Shown here: positions 6,713 through 20,072 of the stretch, in pieces
How positions within the stretch are numbered: position 1 is the first letter of the stretch
How the letters are laid out: the number at the start of each line of letters is the position of its first letter
Notes under the pieces: generated by a model
Told to the model about the DNA's origin: nothing
The model's database searches: none
Seen by the model: only the letters and a program-made list of their open reading frames with translations
Assembly: GCF_000242895.2 (NCBI RefSeq)
Contig: NC_021171.1
Span: 716,001-780,000, forward strand
Origin: Bacillus sp. 1NLA3E
GTDB lineage: Bacteria > Bacillota > Bacilli > Bacillales > Cytobacillaceae
Reading direction: 5' to 3'
Length of the DNA stretch: 64,000 nucleotides
Translations under genes and position numbers: made by a program

Positions 6713-8440
6713 GTGCTGAAATTACTCAGGACTTTAAAAGCATTCAAGTTTCAAGTCGCACTGGTTTTTCTCTTTGTGTTTTTGCAGACATTATCTGATT
6801 TATATTTGCCAAAATTAATGTCGCATATTATTGATAAAGGAGTAGTGACTGGAGATAAGGATTATATATGGAGGATTGGCGGAATCATGCTGTTAGTTGC
6901 AGCGGGAGGACTGGTTTGTACTGTCCTTGTAAGCTTTTTATCAGCAAAGGTTTCTGCTGGCTTTGGAAGGAATACACGCAAGCAGGTATTTACACATGTA
7001 GAAAACTTTTCTTTACAGGAGTTTGACAAAATTGGAACAGCGTCTCTTATTACGAGAACGACAAATGACATTACTCAAGTACAAAACGTGTTAGTGATGA
7101 TGCTTAGGATGATGATTTGGGCACCATTTATGGCGATTGGTGGCATTTTTATGGCTGTAAATCAAGATGCTGAGCTCTCATGGGTTTTTGTTGGGGTAAT
7201 ACCGGTGATTGCTCTGCTTATTTTTGGGATTATGAAAAAAGGGGTCCCGTTTTTTAAAGCTATGCAAGTAAAATTGGACCGGTTGAACCAAGTTGTTCGT
7301 GAACAATTAATGGGAATTAGGGTCATTCGCTCATTCAACCGCAGTGATTTTGAAAAAAAACGGTTTAACAAAGCTAACCTAGATTTAACTGATACTGCAG
7401 TGAAAGTTAACAGGATTATGGCCTTTATGATGCCGGCGATGATGTTAATAATGAACGTTGCAATCGTGGCGATTGTTTGGTTCGGGAGTATCCGTATTGA
7501 TAATATGGCGATGGATCTTGGCGATTTAATGGCTTTTATTCAATACGCGATGCAAATCATGATGGCTCTCGTGATGGTTTCGTTTATGTTTGTTTTAGTG
7601 CCAAGAGCTTCTGTTTCGGCAGTCAGAATTAACGAGGTTCTGGATATGAAGCCTGTTATTAAAAATAGTATTAACACAAAACTTGCAAACCAACAAAGAG
7701 GAATGGTCGAGTTTAAAGACGTTACATTCAGCTATCCAGGTGCTGAAATCCCAGCTCTCTCTCATATATCTTTTATAGCAAAACAAGGACAAACAACAGC
7801 GATAATTGGTGGGACTGGCTCAGGGAAAACCACTATGCTCAGTTTAATTCCACGTTTTTATGATATTACAGGTGGGAGTATTTTAGTGGATGGAATTGAC
7901 ATACGTGAGCAATCACAAGAAAGCTTACGTGAAAAAATAGGATATGTCCCGCAAAAGGCAGTTTTGTTCAGTGGAACGATTGCGGATAATATTCGCTATG
8001 GGAAAGAAAACGCGACTGACGAAGAAATCCGTCATGCGGCGGAAATTGCCCAAGCGACAGATTTTATTTTGGTAAAAGAGGAAGGTTATGAATCACAAAT
8101 TTCTCAGGGCGGAACGAACGTTTCTGGTGGACAAAAACAACGCTTATCAATCGCCCGTGCATTGGTTAGAAAGCCGGAGATCTATTTATTTGACGATAGT
8201 TTCTCAGCATTAGATTTAAAGACTGATGCAAAATTGCGTGCTGCTTTAAAAGGGGAAACGACTGACTCTACCGTTATCATTGTTGCACAGCGGGTTAGCA
8301 CGGTAATGAATGCAGATCAAATCATTGTACTAGAAGACGGAGAAATTTCTGGAATAGGCACCCACAAGGATTTATTAAAAAATAGTGAAGTATATCGTGA
8401 AATTGTATCTTCTCAGATGTCAGAGGAGGAGTCAGCATGA
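6713..8440 (+). CDS. ABC exporter half-transporter, degenerate-site subunit
   Basis: First subunit of a heterodimeric multidrug-type exporter (LmrCD/BmrCD/TM287-288 style). The 575-aa product has six membrane helices in the first ~310 residues and then an ATPase domain with Walker A GGTGSGKTT (about 366-374), signature VSGGQKQ, and Walker B 'IYLFDDSFSALD', where the usual catalytic Glu is Asp. That substitution marks the non-hydrolysing site in this class. GTG 6713 follows a GGAG-like site. It overlaps the next gene by four bases (ATGA), so the two are translationally coupled. Substrate unknown. Regulation by the MarR protein is inferred. Confidence 0.9.
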   Translation: MLKLLRTLKAFKFQVALVFLFVFLQTLSDLYLPKLMSHIIDKGVVTGDKDYIWRIGGIMLLVAAGGLVCTVLVSFLSAKVSAGFGRNTRKQVFTHVENFSLQEFDKIGTASLITRTTNDITQVQNVLVMMLRMMIWAPFMAIGGIFMAVNQDAELSWVFVGVIPVIALLIFGIMKKGVPFFKAMQVKLDRLNQVVREQLMGIRVIRSFNRSDFEKKRFNKANLDLTDTAVKVNRIMAFMMPAMMLIMNVAIVAIVWFGSIRIDNMAMDLGDLMAFIQYAMQIMMALVMVSFMFVLVPRASVSAVRINEVLDMKPVIKNSINTKLANQQRGMVEFKDVTFSYPGAEIPALSHISFIAKQGQTTAIIGGTGSGKTTMLSLIPRFYDITGGSILVDGIDIREQSQESLREKIGYVPQKAVLFSGTIADNIRYGKENATDEEIRHAAEIAQATDFILVKEEGYESQISQGGTNVSGGQKQRLSIARALVRKPEIYLFDDSFSALDLKTDAKLRAALKGETTDSTVIIVAQRVSTVMNADQIIVLEDGEISGIGTHKDLLKNSEVYREIVSSQMSEEESA

Positions 8441-11624: not shown

Positions 11625-12353
11625 ATGAAACGAAAACAACCAACTCTTTTCAAACTATTTATGGTCATAACTCTATCATTTTTAGTACTGGCGGCGTGTT
11701 CATCTAATTCTGATAAGTCAAAATCAGATACTTCAAAATCACAAAAAGATGAGAAAAAAGTAGCAGAAACAAAAATGGATGTAACGAAAGGGAATCCAAT
11801 TTTTGTTGATAAAAAGAATAAAGTTGTTAAGGTTTATGCCACTGTTAATGGCAAATATTTAGTTAGCCCAACTCGTCACGGGTTAAACTGGGTTGATGGA
11901 AACTACGGAGATCAATCAGTACTACAAGCTTACGCGAGCCCACTTAAATTTAACGAAGCATTAGTAGAAATCGGTGGCGTACCGGCTGTTGAAAAAGGCG
12001 GCGACGTAACGAAAGAGTTCAATGAAACTGCAGATGGTAAGTTCATTAAAGGGGACGAGGTTGCTGTTTCAATTACATGGGAAAATGCAAAAAAGGATTA
12101 CAATATCAATGATGTCATGGTCGATTCTACTGGGAAAAAATTAGAATACCATTTCGGTGGTAACTACGATACTCAAGAAGCTAAAAATACTGGTTGTTAT
12201 ATGTGTTTTGATAGCTGTCCTGCAGGGATTACGAGTAATGCAGCCCATCCAGTTGGAACTTTTGAAGGCGGCAAAGCAGAATTTCACGGAAACCCAGATG
12301 TGCTACCTGCTGATGGTACACCTGTCGTTTTAACTTATTCAATCGTTAAGTAA
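11625..12353 (+). CDS. YdjY-like Cys-motif lipoprotein
   Basis: Secreted, membrane-anchored protein of 242 aa. The signal peptide ends in a lipobox with Cys25 (VLAAC), followed by a Ser/Lys-rich linker. The C-terminal half carries three closely spaced cysteines (C191, C194, C198 in 'GCYMCFDSC') followed by PAG and a His-Pro. This is like E. coli YdjY, annotated as a putative Fe-S protein. A metal or Fe-S centre outside the cell is possible but unproven. It is the first gene of a long unit. The next gene starts 15 bases later. Substrate or redox role unknown. Confidence 0.7.
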   Translation: MKRKQPTLFKLFMVITLSFLVLAACSSNSDKSKSDTSKSQKDEKKVAETKMDVTKGNPIFVDKKNKVVKVYATVNGKYLVSPTRHGLNWVDGNYGDQSVLQAYASPLKFNEALVEIGGVPAVEKGGDVTKEFNETADGKFIKGDEVAVSITWENAKKDYNINDVMVDSTGKKLEYHFGGNYDTQEAKNTGCYMCFDSCPAGITSNAAHPVGTFEGGKAEFHGNPDVLPADGTPVVLTYSIVK

Positions 12354-12368
12354 AAAGGCGGGGATTAC

Positions 12369-13541
12369 ATGAAACAAGTTATACGAGGAACAATCCATTT
12401 TTTGTCAGCAATATTTTTATTTTTCATTGTAGGAATGGCATTATCTCTACTACTAATTCAAAATCAGTTCATAGATATGCGTTTTGACAGTGAATTTGTC
12501 ATTACGGTGATGACTGTTACAGGGATATGGTTTTTCTTCGCAAGGGTGTTCATGAATGCACACACCCTTGCTTTATGGGAAAAAAAGTGGATCAGTCTTC
12601 TTTTGGCTTTCGGCAGCTTAGCCTTGATTCTGATTATTACGATTCTTGAAGGTAGCATTTCCATTATGCCAGCCTATATGGCAAGAAAAGCGTTGTTTAT
12701 GGAAAACGCATTGACACTTAGTAATATGAATACGATTCTTATAGTGGGTTTGGTTATTGGTGCCTTAATGCTCATTATGTCCCACCGAAAACCGCTTTCG
12801 TTAAAAAAAGAAACGAAAATGGAGTGGAGTCGGCTCTCAAGAGGAAACCGGATTGGAATGATGTCACTATTTGCCTTGCTGGCAGTTTTTATTCTTGTCT
12901 ATATGGGGCAAGGCGGTATTCACGCTGCGATTAACCATTCGGTGGTATATTTAAAAAATGCTGATGTGGAAGGGTTCCGCGACTATTTGCTATCATTTGG
13001 ACCGTTGGCTGCTGTAGTATCTGGGTTATTGATGGTTTTTCAATCCGTCGTTGCACCACTTCCAGCGTTTGTCATTACCTTTGCAAATGGCCTGCTATTT
13101 GGCTGGTTCTTCGGGGCAATCCTTTCCTGGAGTAGCGCCATGCTTGGTGCAGTCATTTGTTTTTACTTGGCTAAATTTTTAGGAAGACCAGTAGTGGAGA
13201 AAATCGTTACAAAAAAAGCTTTGGAGTGGTGGGACCAATTTTTCGCTAAGTATGGGAAACATTCGGTTTTTATCGCCAGACTTGTACCGATTGTTTCGTT
13301 TGACTTAGTTAGCTATGCTGCCGGCGTAACTTCAGTTTCATTTTGGGAGTTTTTCTGGGCAACAGGTCTCGGTCAACTTCCAGCAACAATCCTTTACTCT
13401 TTCCTAGGTCAGAATGCAACCAACACCGTAAAAATCCTATTCTTTTTGTTCACGATTGTAATCGCGTTGGCAGTTATTGGGATGTTACTACGTCCTAAGA
13501 TTCAACAGTTGATCAATAGGAAAAAGGGAGTAAAAAGGTAA
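12369..13541 (+). CDS. VTT/TVP38-TMEM64 family membrane protein (YdjX/YdjZ-like)
   Basis: Polytopic membrane protein of 390 aa. The first ~150 residues hold four hydrophobic helices not typical of the short YdjX/YdjZ proteins. The C-terminal VTT (SNARE-associated) domain spans about 210-370, with the family features 'LPAFVITFANGLLFG', 'GAVICFYLAKFLGRP' and 'FIARLVPIVSFDLVSYAAG'. VTT proteins include lipid scramblases and DedA-type transporters, but no substrate can be read here. Its stop codon overlaps the next start by one base. Confidence 0.8.
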   Translation: MKQVIRGTIHFLSAIFLFFIVGMALSLLLIQNQFIDMRFDSEFVITVMTVTGIWFFFARVFMNAHTLALWEKKWISLLLAFGSLALILIITILEGSISIMPAYMARKALFMENALTLSNMNTILIVGLVIGALMLIMSHRKPLSLKKETKMEWSRLSRGNRIGMMSLFALLAVFILVYMGQGGIHAAINHSVVYLKNADVEGFRDYLLSFGPLAAVVSGLLMVFQSVVAPLPAFVITFANGLLFGWFFGAILSWSSAMLGAVICFYLAKFLGRPVVEKIVTKKALEWWDQFFAKYGKHSVFIARLVPIVSFDLVSYAAGVTSVSFWEFFWATGLGQLPATILYSFLGQNATNTVKILFFLFTIVIALAVIGMLLRPKIQQLINRKKGVKR

Positions 13542-14560
13542 TGAAATCATCCAAAGAACAAAAGGGAATACCTTTTCTTCAATTGGCAATTAGGATAACG
13601 ATTAGTTCCAGTTTAATGGTTTGGCTATTGAATAGGATACAATGGGACCAAGCTCTCCAGATAATGAAGGAGGGCTCCTTGGTTTATTTTGTGGCTGCGT
13701 TTATTGCTATTCAGCTTACGGTTGGATCAAGTGTATGGAAATGGCAGTTACTGGTCCATTCTTCTTTGCAAAAGACCGAGAGAAAAAATACGTCTTTGAC
13801 AAAATTGGGCCGATACTATTATATCGGTTTATTTTTCAATAATTTTCTACCCGGTAGCGTTGGTGGGGATGTTGTAAGAATTTTTTATTTAGGAAAAATT
13901 ATCGGAATCCCCCCGGCTGCTACTTCCGTTGCCTTTGAACGGCTGACAAGCGGTGCTGCTCTTACCGCAATTGTCCTCGTTTCAGCTTTATTCATGGAAA
14001 ATGTCAGACCATTCCTTTTATCTATTTACATCGTTACAGGCGCAGTTGTTGTTCTATTTGTTTTCATTGGATTTTGGATGAAAAAGGGGAACAAAAGTAA
14101 TGCTTTGATCTTAACAACAAGCGTTCCATCGAGTAAGTTCTCTATTTGGAAAAGCAAGGGTAAAAGTGCACTTGTTAAGATGGGAGAATCGGTTGGAAAT
14201 TATCGAAGTGAAAGCTGGAAATGGTGGGTGACCATCTTGGTCCTTTCAGCAATATTCCAGTTTGGGCTTGCATGGATTAATCAGTTATTATTTTTAGCGT
14301 TTGGCATTTCCATTCCTTGGGTTGAATTATTGGTGATCATTACGCTTATTTCGGTGATAACGATGTTGCCGGTAAGCTTAAATGGGATCGGTGTCCGTGA
14401 AGCAAGTTATGTGTTTTTCTTTAAAGAGCTCGGTGTTCCGGATGAACTTGCCGTTTCCGTTTCTTTGTTATTTTTCTTTCTCGTGACCCTTTCAAGTATT
14501 TTTGGCGGGGTATTTTGGCTATTTGAAAGGAGGAAGCGGTTTGAAGCTATCAGGCAATAG
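13541..14560 (+). CDS. Flippase-like membrane protein (UPF0104 / LPG-synthase TM family)
   Basis: Integral membrane protein of 339 aa with about eight helices and the motif 'FFNNFLPGSVGGDVVRIFYL' typical of lysylphosphatidylglycerol-synthase-TM/AglD-type proteins, followed by 'LPVSLNGIGVREASYVFFF'. Members move or flip lipid-linked substrates, so a lipid role is inferred. It overlaps the VTT gene by one base. Its 3' end overlaps the downstream selenoprotein gene by 20 bp, so all three are coupled. Confidence 0.8.
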   Translation: MKSSKEQKGIPFLQLAIRITISSSLMVWLLNRIQWDQALQIMKEGSLVYFVAAFIAIQLTVGSSVWKWQLLVHSSLQKTERKNTSLTKLGRYYYIGLFFNNFLPGSVGGDVVRIFYLGKIIGIPPAATSVAFERLTSGAALTAIVLVSALFMENVRPFLLSIYIVTGAVVVLFVFIGFWMKKGNKSNALILTTSVPSSKFSIWKSKGKSALVKMGESVGNYRSESWKWWVTILVLSAIFQFGLAWINQLLFLAFGISIPWVELLVIITLISVITMLPVSLNGIGVREASYVFFFKELGVPDELAVSVSLLFFFLVTLSSIFGGVFWLFERRKRFEAIRQ

Positions 14561-15293
14561 ATTGATTGAGTCAATTGTTACCCAACGAGCGAAACATATG
14601 GTAGATGCGATAAAAGGAGAAATCCCTTTTCATCCATTTAAAAAGTCGCCAAAGGATGCTGTTTTTGCTTTGATCACAACAGCTGGCGTTCATTTAAAAT
14701 CGCAGGAAATTTTCGACGTTGAAGCTGGAGACACAAGTGTTAGATTCATTCCTGCTAAAACAAATCAAGCGGATTTAATGATTAGCCATACACACTTTGA
14801 TCGAGCAGATGCCGATAAGGATATCAATTGCGTGTTCCCTTTATTTCGCCTTAGTGAATTAGCTGAAGAGGGTTTAATTGGTGGAGTGGCAGCAACCCAT
14901 TACGGCTTAATGGGATATATTACTGATCCCAAGTTGCTGATTGAAGAAACGATTCCCGCCATAATTAAGCAACTAAGAATGGACGGAACCGATGCAGTAA
15001 TTTTGAATCCTGGCTGATATATATGCCATCAATCCGTGGGATTGATTCAATATGCACTAGAGAAGGAAGGTATTCCAACGATTTCCATCTCACACTTAGT
15101 CGATCTAACCGAGAAAGTCAGGGTGCCAAGAGCACTGCATTTACGTTTTCCGCTTGGCCGTAGCTTTGGTAGGGCAGGAGAAGTAGACCTACAAAGGCAA
15201 ATCTTGCTTGACTGCATTCACTATTTGCAAGAGATCACCCAACCAGAAACGGTGGTCAAGCTTCCTCATAAATGGAAAGGAAGAAAGAGATAA
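14541..15293 (+). CDS. GrdB-family selenoprotein (in-frame TGA read as selenocysteine)
   Basis: Predicted 250-aa member of the glycine/sarcosine/betaine reductase selenoprotein B family. TTG 14541 has AAAGGAGG seven bases upstream. The frame is uninterrupted except for TGA at 15015-15017 (residue 159) and continues to TAA at 15293. Residues around the TGA read N-P-G-U-Y-I-C-H-Q-S, so Sec159 and Cys162 form a UxxC pair where non-selenium relatives are expected to have CxxC. Upstream, 'SHTHFDRADADKDINCVFP' is a conserved family stretch. Downstream, 'SVGLIQYALEKEGIPTISIS' continues the same domain. A SECIS-like hairpin follows the TGA. The protein is much shorter than classical GrdB (~430 aa), so it is unlikely to be a glycine reductase subunit. 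A thiol/selenol redox role is inferred. Confidence 0.85.
15018..15046 (+). promoter_or_regulatory. Candidate bacterial SECIS element
   Basis: Directly after the TGA, ATCAATCC (15028-15035) and GGATTGAT (15039-15046) form a perfect 8-bp stem closed by a GUG triloop. The loop begins 18 nt after the TGA, with G as first loop base. This agrees with the known bacterial SECIS rules: hairpin just downstream of UGA, short apical loop with an early G. It lies entirely inside the coding frame, as usual in bacteria. Confidence 0.8.
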
Positions 15294-15524
15294 TTGAAAC
15301 CGAAAACTGCTAAAACATGCCAGAAGGTTGTTTGGCATATTAGATGGATTCTTTTAGTTGCCTTAATGATTTTTAATCTAAATTCATTTTGTAAAGGTGT
15401 AAACTTTGAAGTGTATTTACCGTTTCATGGGTTTACCTTCGCATTGTACTTTTTCCTTGGATTAATTGAGGATTATTTTATGTGTAAATCCAGTTGTGGG
15501 TTAACCGAAAGGAGTAATAAATGA
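15294..15524 (+). CDS. Small membrane protein of unknown function
   Basis: 76 aa from a TTG at 15294, preceded by the purine-rich AAGGAAGAAAGAG. Two hydrophobic segments (about residues 15-31 and 43-60) and a short C-terminal tail with two cysteines, CKSSC. I do not recognise it. It starts right after the selenoprotein stop and its TGA overlaps the next start (ATGA), so it is embedded in the operon and probably real. It could be an accessory to the importer. Confidence 0.6.
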   Translation: MKPKTAKTCQKVVWHIRWILLVALMIFNLNSFCKGVNFEVYLPFHGFTFALYFFLGLIEDYFMCKSSCGLTERSNK

Positions 15525-16762
15525 GAATATCAAAAATTTTATTTGGAATCATGCTTGTTGTTAGTATTTTGTTAAGTGGATGTGCCTCATCAGATAAAAG
15601 CGAAAAGACTGCGACGAATGTTTTGGGGAATGATTGGAAAGAAATCCAAACAAATTCCAAAGGGAGCACGGTTAACTTTTATATGTGGGGCGGAGATGAA
15701 GGAATCAATCGCTATATTGATGAATGGGTAGCTCCAAAAATGAAAGAACAATATGGAATTAAAGTGAAACGCTATCCAATGGATGCGGCTGAATTTATTA
15801 ATAAACTAATCACTGAAAAGAAAGCAAATAAAAAGTCAGGTGAGATGGATGTTATCTGGGTTAATGGGGAGAATTTTAAAACGGCAAAACAGCAAGATCT
15901 TCTTCTAGGAAGAATCACTAATAAATTGCCTAATTTTAAAAACTATGTAGATGGCAGTAGTCCTAATGTTAACTATGATTTTGGGTTTCCAACGGGTGGG
16001 TATGAGGCCCCATGGGGAAAAGTTCAGTTTGTCTTTGCTTACGATTCAAGCAAAATCTCTAATCCACCTAAATCTATTGCCGAGTTGCAAATATGGATAA
16101 AAGACAATCCTGGTAAGTTTACCTATCCAGCTCCTCCTGACTTTACGGGAAGCGCTTTTATCCGTCATGTTTTAAATGAGAGCAGTGATCATTATTCCTC
16201 TTATTTGAAAAAATTCGACCAAACTCTAATGGAAAAGGATTCCGACAAGGTATGGAAAGAGTTAAATGAGATGGAGCCTTATCTATGGAAGGCTGGAAAA
16301 TCTTATCCACAATCACTTTCTCAGTTGGACCAGCTCTACAAAAATGGAGAGGTTTGGATGACAATGGGCTATGATGAAGCCGGTGCATCCAACTTAATCG
16401 CGAGTGGAGAATTTCCGAGTACGACGAAAACCTTTGTGCTAGAAAAAGGAACACTGTCAAATACTCATTTTCTAACCGTGCCATTTAACTCACCAAACCC
16501 TAGTGGTGCTTTGGTGCTTATTAATTATTTGTTATCTCCAGAGGCACAGTTAAAGAAAATGGATCTTCAATATTGGGGAGAGAATACCTCTTTGTCGGTA
16601 GACAAATTACCTGAGAACTATCGCAAGTCAATGAGTCAAATTGATCGGGGTCCTGCCACTTTACCGGAGGAAGAGCTAGCAAAGCATCGATTGCCTGAAA
16701 TAAGTGCAGAATATGTTCAAATGCTTGATCGGGGCTGGTTGACTCATGTTGCTAACGAGTAA
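15521..16762 (+). CDS. ABC transporter substrate-binding lipoprotein (YnjB-like)
   Basis: Extracellular solute receptor of 413 aa with lipobox LLSGC (Cys21). The mature part begins 'GSTVNFYMWGGDEGINRYID', typical of YnjB and related iron/spermidine/putrescine-type binding proteins of the PBP-II fold. It is followed by two permeases and an ATPase in the order of E. coli ynjBCD. The ligand is unknown. ATG 15521 overlaps the preceding stop, and the permease start lies inside its last 17 bases. Confidence 0.85.
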   Translation: MRISKILFGIMLVVSILLSGCASSDKSEKTATNVLGNDWKEIQTNSKGSTVNFYMWGGDEGINRYIDEWVAPKMKEQYGIKVKRYPMDAAEFINKLITEKKANKKSGEMDVIWVNGENFKTAKQQDLLLGRITNKLPNFKNYVDGSSPNVNYDFGFPTGGYEAPWGKVQFVFAYDSSKISNPPKSIAELQIWIKDNPGKFTYPAPPDFTGSAFIRHVLNESSDHYSSYLKKFDQTLMEKDSDKVWKELNEMEPYLWKAGKSYPQSLSQLDQLYKNGEVWMTMGYDEAGASNLIASGEFPSTTKTFVLEKGTLSNTHFLTVPFNSPNPSGALVLINYLLSPEAQLKKMDLQYWGENTSLSVDKLPENYRKSMSQIDRGPATLPEEELAKHRLPEISAEYVQMLDRGWLTHVANE

Positions 16763-17651
16763 AATTACTCAATATTTAACGGAAAATAAAGGGCTGTTGG
16801 GAATCTTCCCAGCCTTTTTATTTGTTTTAATCTTTTTTGTTGGAGGCTTTCTCCAATCGTTGTGTAGTAGTCTTGGCTTTGGTAATCAGATGGGGATGGA
16901 TGGTCACGGGTTCGGCTGGGTATATCAAGAGATAATGACGCCATACTACCTTCAAGCTTTTGGCGTAACCGTCTTGATGGCCGCTGTCATCTCGGTATTA
17001 GCAGGTGTTATTGGGATAATAGCTGCGCTTATGTTAGCAACTCTTTCAACAAAGTGGAAATGGCTGCACATTGTCTTTCAGCTACCTGTTGGTGTACCTC
17101 ATTTATTATCAGCCTATATGTTGACACAAGTTTTGATGCAAACCGGATGGTTTTCTCGAATAGCTTTTCATCTTGGGTGGATTGATCGTTTTGAGAGGTT
17201 TCCATCGATGATTCATGACACATGGGGAATTGGTTTCATTTTGGCTTATTTGTGGAAGGAAATTCCCTTTATAGTTTTATTAATCGCTCCTTTTATAGCA
17301 AAATTAATGGCAGAGTGGAAAGAAACGTCCATCATGCTTGGAGCGAGCCCTTTTCAAACTGTTCGTTGGGTGATCATCCCGATTTTAATGCCTCTTTGGG
17401 TAGGGGGAATGTGGGTCACGTTCGCTTTTGCGTTAGGGGCGTATGAAATTCCAGCTTTATTAGCTAGAACCTCGTTTCGATTCATTCCTGTTCTTGCATG
17501 GCAGGAATACACCCAATTTGGATTAGAACGGCAGCCAATTGCAATTGCTCTAAATATGGTACTTGCCCTCGTTTCCTTTATTATTGGATTGATATTAATC
17601 TATTTGCAAAAAAAGTGGTATGGAGAAGGGAGAAGAATATGGAACCGTTAA
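16746..17651 (+). CDS. ABC importer permease, YnjC N-half-like
   Basis: 301-aa permease with six or more helices and the cytoplasmic EAA-type loop 'ETSIMLGASPFQTVRWVIIP' that contacts the ATPase. E. coli YnjC is one protein containing two permease halves. Here the halves are separate genes. ATG 16746 overlaps the binding-protein gene by 17 bp, and the second permease begins 13 bp before this gene ends. Confidence 0.85.
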   Translation: MLLTSKITQYLTENKGLLGIFPAFLFVLIFFVGGFLQSLCSSLGFGNQMGMDGHGFGWVYQEIMTPYYLQAFGVTVLMAAVISVLAGVIGIIAALMLATLSTKWKWLHIVFQLPVGVPHLLSAYMLTQVLMQTGWFSRIAFHLGWIDRFERFPSMIHDTWGIGFILAYLWKEIPFIVLLIAPFIAKLMAEWKETSIMLGASPFQTVRWVIIPILMPLWVGGMWVTFAFALGAYEIPALLARTSFRFIPVLAWQEYTQFGLERQPIAIALNMVLALVSFIIGLILIYLQKKWYGEGRRIWNR

Positions 17652-18457
17652 CCTACATAAGGAAAATTCTAATCTGGTTTTTCCTCCTTTTGCTGAGCCT
17701 TTTTCTGGTTCTACCCTTTTTTTCTCTCTTTTTATGGAGTATCACAAAACTATGGCCTTGGCCTCAGCTATTACCTGAAAATTTTAGCATGGACTCATGG
17801 GGATACCTATTTTCTAGGTCTGGAATGGCGTTTGAAGGATTATTTAATAGTTTGGTTGTCGCGGGTATCACAGTGATAGGGAATTTATTATTAGGTCTCC
17901 CTGCAGCTAGAGTACTCAGCCAAAAACATTTTTTCGGAAAAGGATTTGTCGTTATCACACTTCTTTCCCCATTATTTATTCCTTTAACTGTATCAGTAAT
18001 GGGTCTACACGAAATCTCGATTCAGATCCAGTTCTTAAATGATTTTTTCAGTGTGGCATTGGCTCATATTTTGATTACACTTCCATATTTTATTGCGATG
18101 CTAACCTACCAGTATAAACTGATAGGGGTGAAATTACAGGAGGCTGCAAGGAGTCTTGGAGCGAGTCCATGGCAGACATTTTTGTGGATTGAGCTACCTC
18201 AAGCTCTACCAGCCCTGTTGTTGGTTTGTTTATTGGTTATCATCATTTCCTTAAGTCAATACTTACCAACTTGGATTATGAGTGGAGGGACATTGTTGAC
18301 TCTCCCATTAATCATCTTTCCTTTTGCTAGTAGCGGAAATGCCTCGATTGTTTCTGCCTATAGCATCTTTTTCTTCATCCCTGTTATTATATTTGTCCTA
18401 ATCTATTTTCTTCTTCTATCCTTTCAGCAAAAAAGAAATAAGGGGGTGGTCAAATGA
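17639..18457 (+). CDS. ABC importer permease, YnjC C-half-like
   Basis: 272-aa second permease of the importer. The EAA loop is 'KLQEAARSLGASPWQTFLWI'. I chose ATG 17639, preceded by AAGGGAGAAGA, over a longer in-frame start at 17498 whose extra 47 residues only shadow the previous gene. It overlaps the ATPase gene by four bases (ATGA). Confidence 0.87.
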   Translation: MEPLTYIRKILIWFFLLLLSLFLVLPFFSLFLWSITKLWPWPQLLPENFSMDSWGYLFSRSGMAFEGLFNSLVVAGITVIGNLLLGLPAARVLSQKHFFGKGFVVITLLSPLFIPLTVSVMGLHEISIQIQFLNDFFSVALAHILITLPYFIAMLTYQYKLIGVKLQEAARSLGASPWQTFLWIELPQALPALLLVCLLVIIISLSQYLPTWIMSGGTLLTLPLIIFPFASSGNASIVSAYSIFFFIPVIIFVLIYFLLLSFQQKRNKGVVK

Positions 18458-19464
18458 ACCTCGAAGACGTGAGTATTTGTTTCGAGAAACAAATAATAAT
18501 CGATTCCGTGAATTTAGACATTAATAAGGGAGAAATTTTCGTGTTAATGGGTCCGTCCGGAAGCGGAAAAACAACTTTATTAAAAGGAATAGCCGGGTTA
18601 TTGCCACTTTCGTCTGGTATACTAAAATGGAAAAACGACAAGGGGAAAACGGGCCTTGTTTTTCAGGATCCTCGGCTTTTTCCACATATGACAGTTGTTG
18701 AAAACTTAGCTTTCGGATTACGTGCAAAAGGGATTGCTAAGAAGGAGCGGAATCATCGGGTTAAAGAGTTTTTACAAATCCTGCAGCTTGAAAGGTTAGA
18801 AAAACGTTTCCCACACCAGTTATCGGGAGGGCAACAGCAAAGGGTATCGTTAGGACGAGTCCTCGTGTTAAAACCGGACCTGCTCCTACTAGATGAGCCG
18901 TTTGCTTCCTTAGATACGCCGCTTCGTATCCAATTAACAGAGTGGCTATATCAATTACAAAGAAAACAAGGTTTTTCTATCCTTTGGGTGACTCATTATC
19001 TGGATGAAGCCTTTTCTGTAGCTGACAGGGTCGGAGTGATCATGAATGGGAAGCTTCGGCAGGTTGGAAAACCGCAGGATTTTTACCAAAAGCCTTGGTC
19101 GGAAAATGTTGCAGCATTTTTCGCATTAAAAAATCGGTTTTCTTTTTCACAATGGAATAAGTGGTTTCCAAACGGGTTTCAACAGCTGGAAACGGATGAG
19201 ATGGGCTGGATTCCAGCAAATGCCCTTTCCCTTTCGACAGATAGTCAGTTATCAATATTGGAAGATTTTCCTGTTACGTGGTTAGATGGGGTTGTGACGC
19301 GAGTAAAGAATGAAACAAATGGACATATTGCTTTGGTAAAATCTGAAGGTGAAAACCTTGAAGTTGAACTGAATGTTTGGGAGGCATTACCCGCTGTAAA
19401 CAGTCCGGTAAAGGTTGGCGTTCCACTTAATAAAATTATTTGGTATCCGAAAGAAGATCATTGA
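18454..19464 (+). CDS. ABC importer ATPase (YnjD-like)
   Basis: Drives the importer formed by the preceding genes. Of 336 aa: Walker A GPSGSGKTT at 33-41, signature LSGGQQQR near 123, Walker B 'LLLLDEPFASLD' near 143, switch His in 'WVTHYLDEAF'. A C-terminal extension of about 120 residues after the ATPase core may be a regulatory or TOBE-like domain and makes it longer than E. coli YnjD. It is followed 14 bases later by the phosphatidyltransferase gene. Confidence 0.87.
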   Translation: MNLEDVSICFEKQIIIDSVNLDINKGEIFVLMGPSGSGKTTLLKGIAGLLPLSSGILKWKNDKGKTGLVFQDPRLFPHMTVVENLAFGLRAKGIAKKERNHRVKEFLQILQLERLEKRFPHQLSGGQQQRVSLGRVLVLKPDLLLLDEPFASLDTPLRIQLTEWLYQLQRKQGFSILWVTHYLDEAFSVADRVGVIMNGKLRQVGKPQDFYQKPWSENVAAFFALKNRFSFSQWNKWFPNGFQQLETDEMGWIPANALSLSTDSQLSILEDFPVTWLDGVVTRVKNETNGHIALVKSEGENLEVELNVWEALPAVNSPVKVGVPLNKIIWYPKEDH

Positions 19465-19478
19465 GGTGAAGATAAAAA

Positions 19479-20072
19479 ATGCTTGATACATACGGAAGGT
19501 CTTATGTACAACCAATCATTCGACGAACAGGAGACTTTTTGCTTAAAAGAGGACTGAAAGCGGATCATGTGACGGTGATAGCTTTCTTGATAGGAATCTC
19601 AGCAAGTTTCTTGGTTTATGGTGAAAAACCTATTTGGGGAGTCATTGTCCTTTGGTTATCAGGATTTCTCGATGCAGTTGATGGAAGTATGGCAAGACAA
19701 AGTAAAACCTCATCCTCGTGGGGGACAGTATTAGATGTCACGTTTGATCGAATCGTAGAATGCGGCATTATTATCGCTTTAGCGATTCGGCATCCGGATC
19801 CGGCTATTTTATTTTTGCTTCTGCTTTTGGCCATTTCGATCATTGTTACGATGACGGTTTTTTTGACAGTTGGCGCAGTGTCACAAAAGCCTAGTTATAA
19901 ATCATTTTACTATCAACCAGGGTTAGCAGAACGAACAGAAGGATTTATATTATTTTCTTTGATGGTTTTGTTTCAACCTCATTTGAAGTTTTGGACAATC
20001 ATTTTTCTAATAGTTGAATTAGCTACGGGGTTGCAAAGATTATTAGAAGCACGGAGGATATTGAAAGATTAA
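19479..20072 (+). CDS. CDP-alcohol phosphatidyltransferase (YnjF-like)
   Basis: Membrane enzyme of 197 aa that would transfer a phospho-substituent from a CDP-alcohol to an acceptor alcohol. The full catalytic signature is present: D65-x2-D68-G69-x2-A72-R73, then G82-x3-D86-x3-D90. Five or six hydrophobic helices. E. coli YnjF is at the same place after ynjBCDE. Substrate unknown; phospholipid or phosphonolipid headgroup chemistry is conceivable. Last gene of the unit, with a terminator behind it. Confidence 0.85.
   Translation: MLDTYGRSYVQPIIRRTGDFLLKRGLKADHVTVIAFLIGISASFLVYGEKPIWGVIVLWLSGFLDAVDGSMARQSKTSSSWGTVLDVTFDRIVECGIIIALAIRHPDPAILFLLLLLAISIIVTMTVFLTVGAVSQKPSYKSFYYQPGLAERTEGFILFSLMVLFQPHLKFWTIIFLIVELATGLQRLLEARRILKD

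Follow-up and report, generated by a model that had tools for sequence, protein, structure and literature searches.

The locus analysed here raises the question of what a selenium-containing protein might do among the genes of a predicted importer. The gene in question (14541..15293, + strand) lies in a stretch of 64,000 nucleotides from Bacillus sp. 1NLA3E, which we call the window. It starts with TTG, ends with TAA and is open except for an in-frame TGA at 15015-15017. A Shine-Dalgarno-like sequence, AAAGGAGG, was found by eye at 14526-14533, 7 nt ahead of the start codon. The predicted product is a PrdB/GrdB-like protein of 250 residues with the UxxC motif U159-Y-I-C162. We have accepted the gene as one for a predicted selenoprotein, the TGA presumably being read as selenocysteine (Sec159).

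PrdB-like UxxC selenoproteins are a family already known. What is new is the surroundings of the gene, that is its tie to an importer gene cluster, and this cluster, on which the original prediction is silent, is more informative than the selenoprotein call alone. The reading towards which we lean is that of a stand-alone PrdB/GrdB-like selenoprotein in a conserved gene cluster of the ydj/ynj type, a predicted importer operon, where it would likely reduce the imported compound. This connects a selenoprotein that has no assigned role with an uncharacterised, conserved ydj/ynj cluster which is also present in E. coli K-12, and the link makes both of them testable. No report linking a PrdB/GrdB-like selenoprotein to ydj/ynj genes was found among the literature matches listed, a scope that mostly leaves out subscription journals.

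A predicted importer operon

The cluster consists of ten genes on the + strand, which we predict from their spacing to be co-transcribed as an ABC-importer operon. The first gene codes for a YdjY-domain lipoprotein with the motif TGCYMCFDSC (11625..12353; NF040466, 131.6 bits; 39% identity to E. coli YdjY). It is followed by a VTT/DedA-type membrane protein with a YdjZ-like C-terminal part (12369..13541; PF09335; 51% to E. coli YdjZ) and a flippase-like membrane protein of the LPG_synthase_TM type (13541..14560; PF03706, TIGR00374). Behind the selenoprotein gene come a putative membrane protein of 76 residues with a C-x3-C end (15294..15524), which has no Pfam or NCBIfam match, and a YnjB-type ABC solute-binding lipoprotein (15521..16762; NF008633, 496.7 bits, cut-off 203; 38.5% to E. 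coli YnjB). Then follow two ABC permeases, one corresponding to half of YnjC (16746..17651; PF00528; 26%) and one to its other half (17639..18457, with a probable start inside a listed reading frame that begins at 17498); in a direct comparison with E. coli MG1655 the identity of YnjC to both permeases was 24-26%. The last two genes code for a YnjD-like ABC ATPase (18454..19464; PF00005; 35% to YnjD) and a YnjF-like protein resembling CDP-alcohol phosphatidyltransferases (19479..20072; PF01066; 27% to YnjF). Divergent from the cluster lies a gene for a LysR regulator of the selenium-metabolism-associated family NF040786 (10575..11465, - strand; 295.8 bits, cut-off 250); a selenium-linked LysR subfamily is proposed in a passage of PMC5322559.

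Seven of the nine neighbours of the selenoprotein gene match E. coli ydj/ynj genes, and the likeness to ydjXYZ-ynjABCDEF consists of homologues of YdjY, YdjZ/X, YnjB, YnjC, YnjD and YnjF. The E. coli cluster has YnjA and YnjE, neither of which has a match within the 64-kb window, and no PrdB-like gene there, whereas the window cluster additionally contains the selenoprotein, the LPG_synthase_TM protein and the 76-residue protein. In E. coli ydjXYZ-ynjABCD and ynjE are activated by FNR, according to a passage of PMC3688515.

Twenty-one Bacillaceae loci with flanking sequence could be compared (the window, L021-L035, L151, L154, L156, L160 and L161). In all 21 the gene for the binding protein is found downstream of the selenoprotein gene, with the 76-residue gene between the two. 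The flanks, which differ in length, contain a LysR match in 5 of the 21 loci and a ynjE-like gene in 3 (L023, L151 and, weakly, L154). The arrangement is also found, in part, in Clostridiaceae (L040), Tissierella (L048), Ammoniphilus (L058) and Facklamia (L091).

Split alignments had led us to suspect a second selenoprotein in YdjY, but a pattern search at its Cys motif in five loci (L023, L025, L026, L157 and L161) found no TGA, and this candidate was rejected. It should be noted that the two halves of YdjY are in different frames in L151 and L160, and that YdjY is alignable only in part in L022, L026, L028 and L035; the genes behind it were still found at all these loci.

The linkage between the selenoprotein and the importer was analysed in 193 genomes of the bacterial family. 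The PrdB profile has 58 matches in 48 of these genomes, and a YnjB-type protein scores above the cut-off in 22. In 20 of the 22 the TGA gene lies at most 0.4 kb away, and these 20 genes take up precisely ranks 3-22 among the 58 profile matches, ranks 1-2 being the two matches in genome G007 that are above the PrdB cut-off. SelA is present in all 20 linked genomes, but this says little, SelA being widespread in the family (above the cut-off in 182 of 193). The two exceptions are G066, which has the YnjB-type protein and no match to either SelA or the PrdB profile, and G121, which has SelA and a PrdB-profile match elsewhere in the genome. In the clusters of both exceptions a gene for an FAD disulfide-reductase-like protein adjoins the VTT gene.

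At the level of the class, YnjB is above the cut-off in 65 of 398 genomes, our own included. Neighbourhoods were examined in 38 of the other 64; the counts do not include two more loci, which score under the cut-off. The TGA gene is present in 3 of the 38 stretches (L194, L200 and L203, the last from the same genome as L058), all of them with SelA, and the FAD gene is present in 20 (in L195 at a distance of ~7 kb). Both genes are found together in L194 and L200 and also in the Clostridiaceae locus L040. When the clusters of both surveys are counted together, 20 of the 37 that lack the selenoprotein have the FAD gene, compared to 2 of the 22 that contain it; these 22 are the three class-level clusters and the 19 family loci (of 20) for which flanks were available. 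The Fisher test (p 0.0007) takes no account of shared ancestry, and since the 19 loci are close relatives the apparent exchange of the two genes is only a hint. Of the 35 class-level clusters that lack the selenoprotein, 17 show neither gene in the examined stretch (11 of the 17 are from one family, L215-L224 and L226, and L209 is truncated by the end of its contig), which means that a reductive gene is not universal in these clusters. Two class-level clusters, L205 (genome G221) and L210 (genome G210), have the YdjY-VTT-LPG-YnjB arrangement in genomes with SelA and contain no selenoprotein gene, so the protein is not indispensable. The 76-residue gene is also present in L205, thus at a place without the selenoprotein gene.

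Proposed role and competing readings of the cluster

What we infer from the cluster is a selenium-dependent reductive step on a compound brought in by the transporter. The ABC importer would bring in the compound and the selenoprotein, made by reading the UGA at 15015-15017 as Sec159 with the help of a hairpin at 15028-15046, would reduce it. By analogy with GrdB, Sec159 may be the nucleophile which attacks the imported compound; Cys162 would resolve the intermediate by closing a selenenylsulfide, which cell thiols would then reset. In work on GrdB the selenocysteine of this protein family is assumed to attack a polarised bond of its substrate, and the cleavage of C-N and, as proposed there, C-F bonds has been connected with family members (passages of PMC10838667). 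Unlike proline or glycine reductase the protein would need no pyruvoyl subunit. It would do the same job as the FAD-dependent disulfide-reductase-like protein of the sister clusters. A further step is to suppose that a GrdB-like selenoprotein without pyruvoyl subunit took over the reductive step which a flavin disulfide reductase carries out in those clusters, and this we put forward as a tentative and rather doubtful idea. If it were true, selenium chemistry would become part of nutrient import, and there would be a first way into the role of the E. coli genes ydjXYZ-ynjABCDEF, which are uncharacterised. A first guess for the substrate class is an oxidised sulfur- or selenium-containing compound, because the rhodanese YnjE is found in the E. 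coli cluster and in a few Bacillaceae clusters.

A known system with a similar combination of genes is the SAO selenoprotein operon (Haft and Gwadz, 2023, as described in a passage of PMC13188914), which also joins selenoproteins to an ABC transporter. According to that description its selenoproteins are several, belong to other families and include ABC subunits, whereas in the window cluster a single selenoprotein was seen, and this is no subunit of the ABC transporter.

The regulator suggests another reading, in which the cluster is a system for uptake and supply of selenium under a selenium-sensing LysR protein, with the selenoprotein as its reductase. The NF040786 gene adjoins the window cluster, selD of E. 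coli lies ~5.6 kb beyond ynjF, and a 2026 review states in one passage that no specific high-affinity transport system for selenium has been identified in prokaryotes (PMC13188914). This is at variance with the genomes of the class, since 24 of the 38 with YnjB above the cut-off have no SelA above the cut-off, and with the small share of Bacillaceae loci (the 5 of 21) in which a LysR match lies near the cluster. We consider this reading unlikely.

Relatives of the selenoprotein also lie in other contexts. Some are found in or beside arsenosugar-type clusters, in L048 (TIGR04282, TIGR04283), L091 (TIGR04282) and L100 (ArsS, TIGR04167); others lie beside MerA-like FAD oxidoreductases (L039, L040 and L090) or beside weak ynjE (rhodanese) matches (L098 and L100). 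These contexts fit a redox step coupled to the respective systems, and no common substrate emerges from them. The arsenosugar-type clusters and the MerA-like character of the FAD genes would suit a cluster handling a metalloid or a thiol-binding metal, which the selenolate binds or reduces. However, no arsenic or mercury family is found among the matches of the proteins of the window cluster, and the MerA-like proteins that were scanned score under the MerA cut-off, so that we give this reading a low probability as well.

The genes for the VTT protein, the LPG_synthase_TM protein and the CDP-alcohol phosphatidyltransferase in the same cluster could also mean that the cluster remodels membrane lipids and that the selenoprotein reduces a lipid-linked intermediate. 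This appears quite improbable: the most widely shared core is the ABC importer with its binding protein, which speaks for an imported solute, and just 2 of the 38 stretches examined in the class contain an LPG_synthase_TM match.

Relation to proline and glycine reductases

The reduction of an imported compound, which we prefer, has to be set against the known reactions of the family to which the protein belongs. The original prediction had placed the gene in the GrdB family. The Pfam model GRDB (PF07355) is just passed (26.6 against a gathering score of 22), in a short C-terminal part that covers profile positions 264-344 of 347. Among named families, however, PrdB is closer than GrdB. The best NCBIfam model is PrdB, TIGR04483, with 181.1 bits, which is under the cut-off of 300. 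With PrdB the protein shares its length, the UxxC selenocysteine motif and overall homology, and differs in the sub-cut-off score, the clade and the gene cluster. With GrdB it shares a homologous C-terminal part with UxxC, but it has 250 residues compared to ~430 (models 431-435). The UxxC motif is common to PrdB and GrdB (in a passage of PMC13188914).

A profile search of the host genome gave no match to PF09338, although the same search gave matches in the genomes G005 and G007. PF09338 comprises partner subunits of the pyruvoyl type (PrdA, GrdE); the window gene differs from both PrdB and GrdB in that no such partner was found in its genome. The search covered 15 genomes and gave no match in the 13 others. 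In G005 and G007 it lies close to their other PrdB-profile matches, which in G007 are the two above the PrdB cut-off and in G005 two with frames of ~440 residues. A gene of the window type is carried by 13 of the 15 genomes, and 11 of these 13 are without PF09338. Since no PF09338 partner was found, the protein does not qualify as a proline or glycine reductase of the classical kind.

A tree was built from 56 proteins, in which the copies linked to the cluster form one Bacillota clade (22 rows, support 100/98), separate from genuine PrdB. The label "cluster-linked" needs four changes on the tree, which shows that the clade also has members in other contexts; L036, L045 and L100 are such members outside ynj clusters.

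It could be argued that the gene codes for a working subunit of D-proline or glycine reductase in amino-acid fermentation, since PrdB is the top model, PF07355 is passed and the UxxC motif is as in PrdB and GrdB (PMC13188914, same passage). With a score under the PrdB cut-off, PF09338 not found in a genome search that detects it in G005 and G007, and a clade distinct from genuine PrdB, we find this very unlikely, and judging from these sequence comparisons we would therefore not file the gene as a proline or glycine reductase.

Selenoproteome surveys list PrdB-like selenoproteins, in the passages which name them, as proline reductases, and members like the window gene have probably been counted there. 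For a clade tied to an importer cluster, with PF09338 missing in 11 of 13 tested genomes, the usual name would mislead. The "PrdB" selenoproteins of marine metagenomes (PMC1088965, PMC2398784) are likewise PrdB-like UxxC proteins; in contrast to the situation in the window, ynj genes are not mentioned in the passages of these two papers that deal with them. They may also be without PrdA.

The 58 PrdB-profile matches of the family include 55 with one TGA, one with two TGA, one with two TAA and one stop-free fragment. Other TGA-containing PrdB-like subfamilies occur in the same bacterial family (L121-L130, L158), with motifs such as TPAUSHCHRS and TAGUPLCHRT. No ynj genes were seen in the stretches L150, L158 and L159, and G010 has two copies ~5 kb apart. 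Twenty-four plasmid records match the protein, all with less than 60% identity, and the annotated ones among the ten listed are called PrdB.

Reading of the TGA codon

The selenoprotein call itself rests on the TGA codon, the hairpin behind it and the genes needed to use them. It had been claimed that the frame is broken by this TGA only and continues with family sequence, and that the TGA replaces the first Cys of a CxxC-like motif; both claims were confirmed. Read through the TGA the frame gives a full-length alignment, with 65-80% identity to the operon-linked Bacillaceae relatives. The aligned codon was compared in 80 relatives, which belong to named genomes, span phyla and are the best of 188 confirmed stretches: it is TGA in 68 and Cys in 10, from Ktedonobacteria and Acidobacteria, while the other two have GGA and GAT. 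Thirty further loci of the family were compared, of which one is the window and 13 are from genomes already counted; the remaining 16 all have TGA. The same TGA in independent relatives speaks against a sequencing error in a TGT or TGC codon, which the original prediction had named as an alternative. The truncated annotation which it foresaw is seen in the database, where 78 of the 120 homologues listed (302 were found) have exactly 158 residues and end at the TGA site. A deltaproteobacterial member (L046, 10001-10678) has GGA (Gly) at the codon that is TGA in its close relatives, and the database proteins P0094 and P0106 have Trp at the Sec position, as if the gene caller had read TGA as Trp.

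Bacterial SECIS elements are hairpins just downstream of the TGA with a G in a small loop. A hairpin of this kind, AUCAAUCC-GUG-GGAUUGAU, is located at 15028..15046 (+ strand), exactly as had been described: a perfect 8-bp stem (15028-15035/15039-15046) with the loop GUG (15036-15038), 11-29 nt past the TGA. Its folding energy is ordinary (z -1.09; equalled or exceeded by 27 of 200 shuffles). The pairing was analysed in 32 sequences including the window, 30 of them distinct, and is kept in 97.1% of cells, which is above each of 500 shuffles. Covariation is modest, with double changes in one of the eight pairs (A-U to G-C, 3 sequences), a count of pairs matched by 172 of the 500 shuffles, and lends weak support. 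In 22 Bacillaceae genes, the window included, codons 163-169 use the same codon in 0.96 of the pairs with the same residue, compared to an average of 0.48 over 209 other codons, and this window of seven codons ranks at the top of 234 sliding ones. The hairpin is thus more than chance because it is conserved, in its pairing and in its frozen codons, and not because of its folding energy.

SelA, SelB, SelD and a tRNA-Sec with the anticodon UCA had been predicted for the host genome (one contig, 4.8 Mb), and all were found: one SelA, one full SelB and one SelD, each above its cut-off, and two tRNA-Sec genes above the Rfam cut-off, both of which ARAGORN identifies as tRNA-Sec with the anticodon UCA. 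The original prediction had named three findings that would speak against it, namely a genome without this machinery, homologues with neither Cys nor Sec at the position, and a sequencing error; on all three the results favour the prediction.

An ordinary stop, in a decayed gene or between two separate genes, would agree with the 158-residue database proteins and with the unremarkable folding energy of the hairpin by itself, but is hardly credible when the TGA is kept across phyla, with Cys in its place in 10 relatives, the frame downstream of it is conserved, the codons of the hairpin are frozen and the selenocysteine machinery of the genome is complete.

The SelD gene (L162, 3992-5044), divergent from selA, has an in-frame TGA of its own and codes for a predicted selenoprotein with the motif KAGUGCK. 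The two tRNA-Sec genes are ~5.1 kb apart (7675-7767 and 12777-12865 of L232, G000:C1:1524000-1543000). They have an identical stretch of 43 bases at the 5' end, and each is followed by a phage-integrase gene (PF00589); it looks as if elements have inserted at tRNA-Sec, possibly duplicating it.
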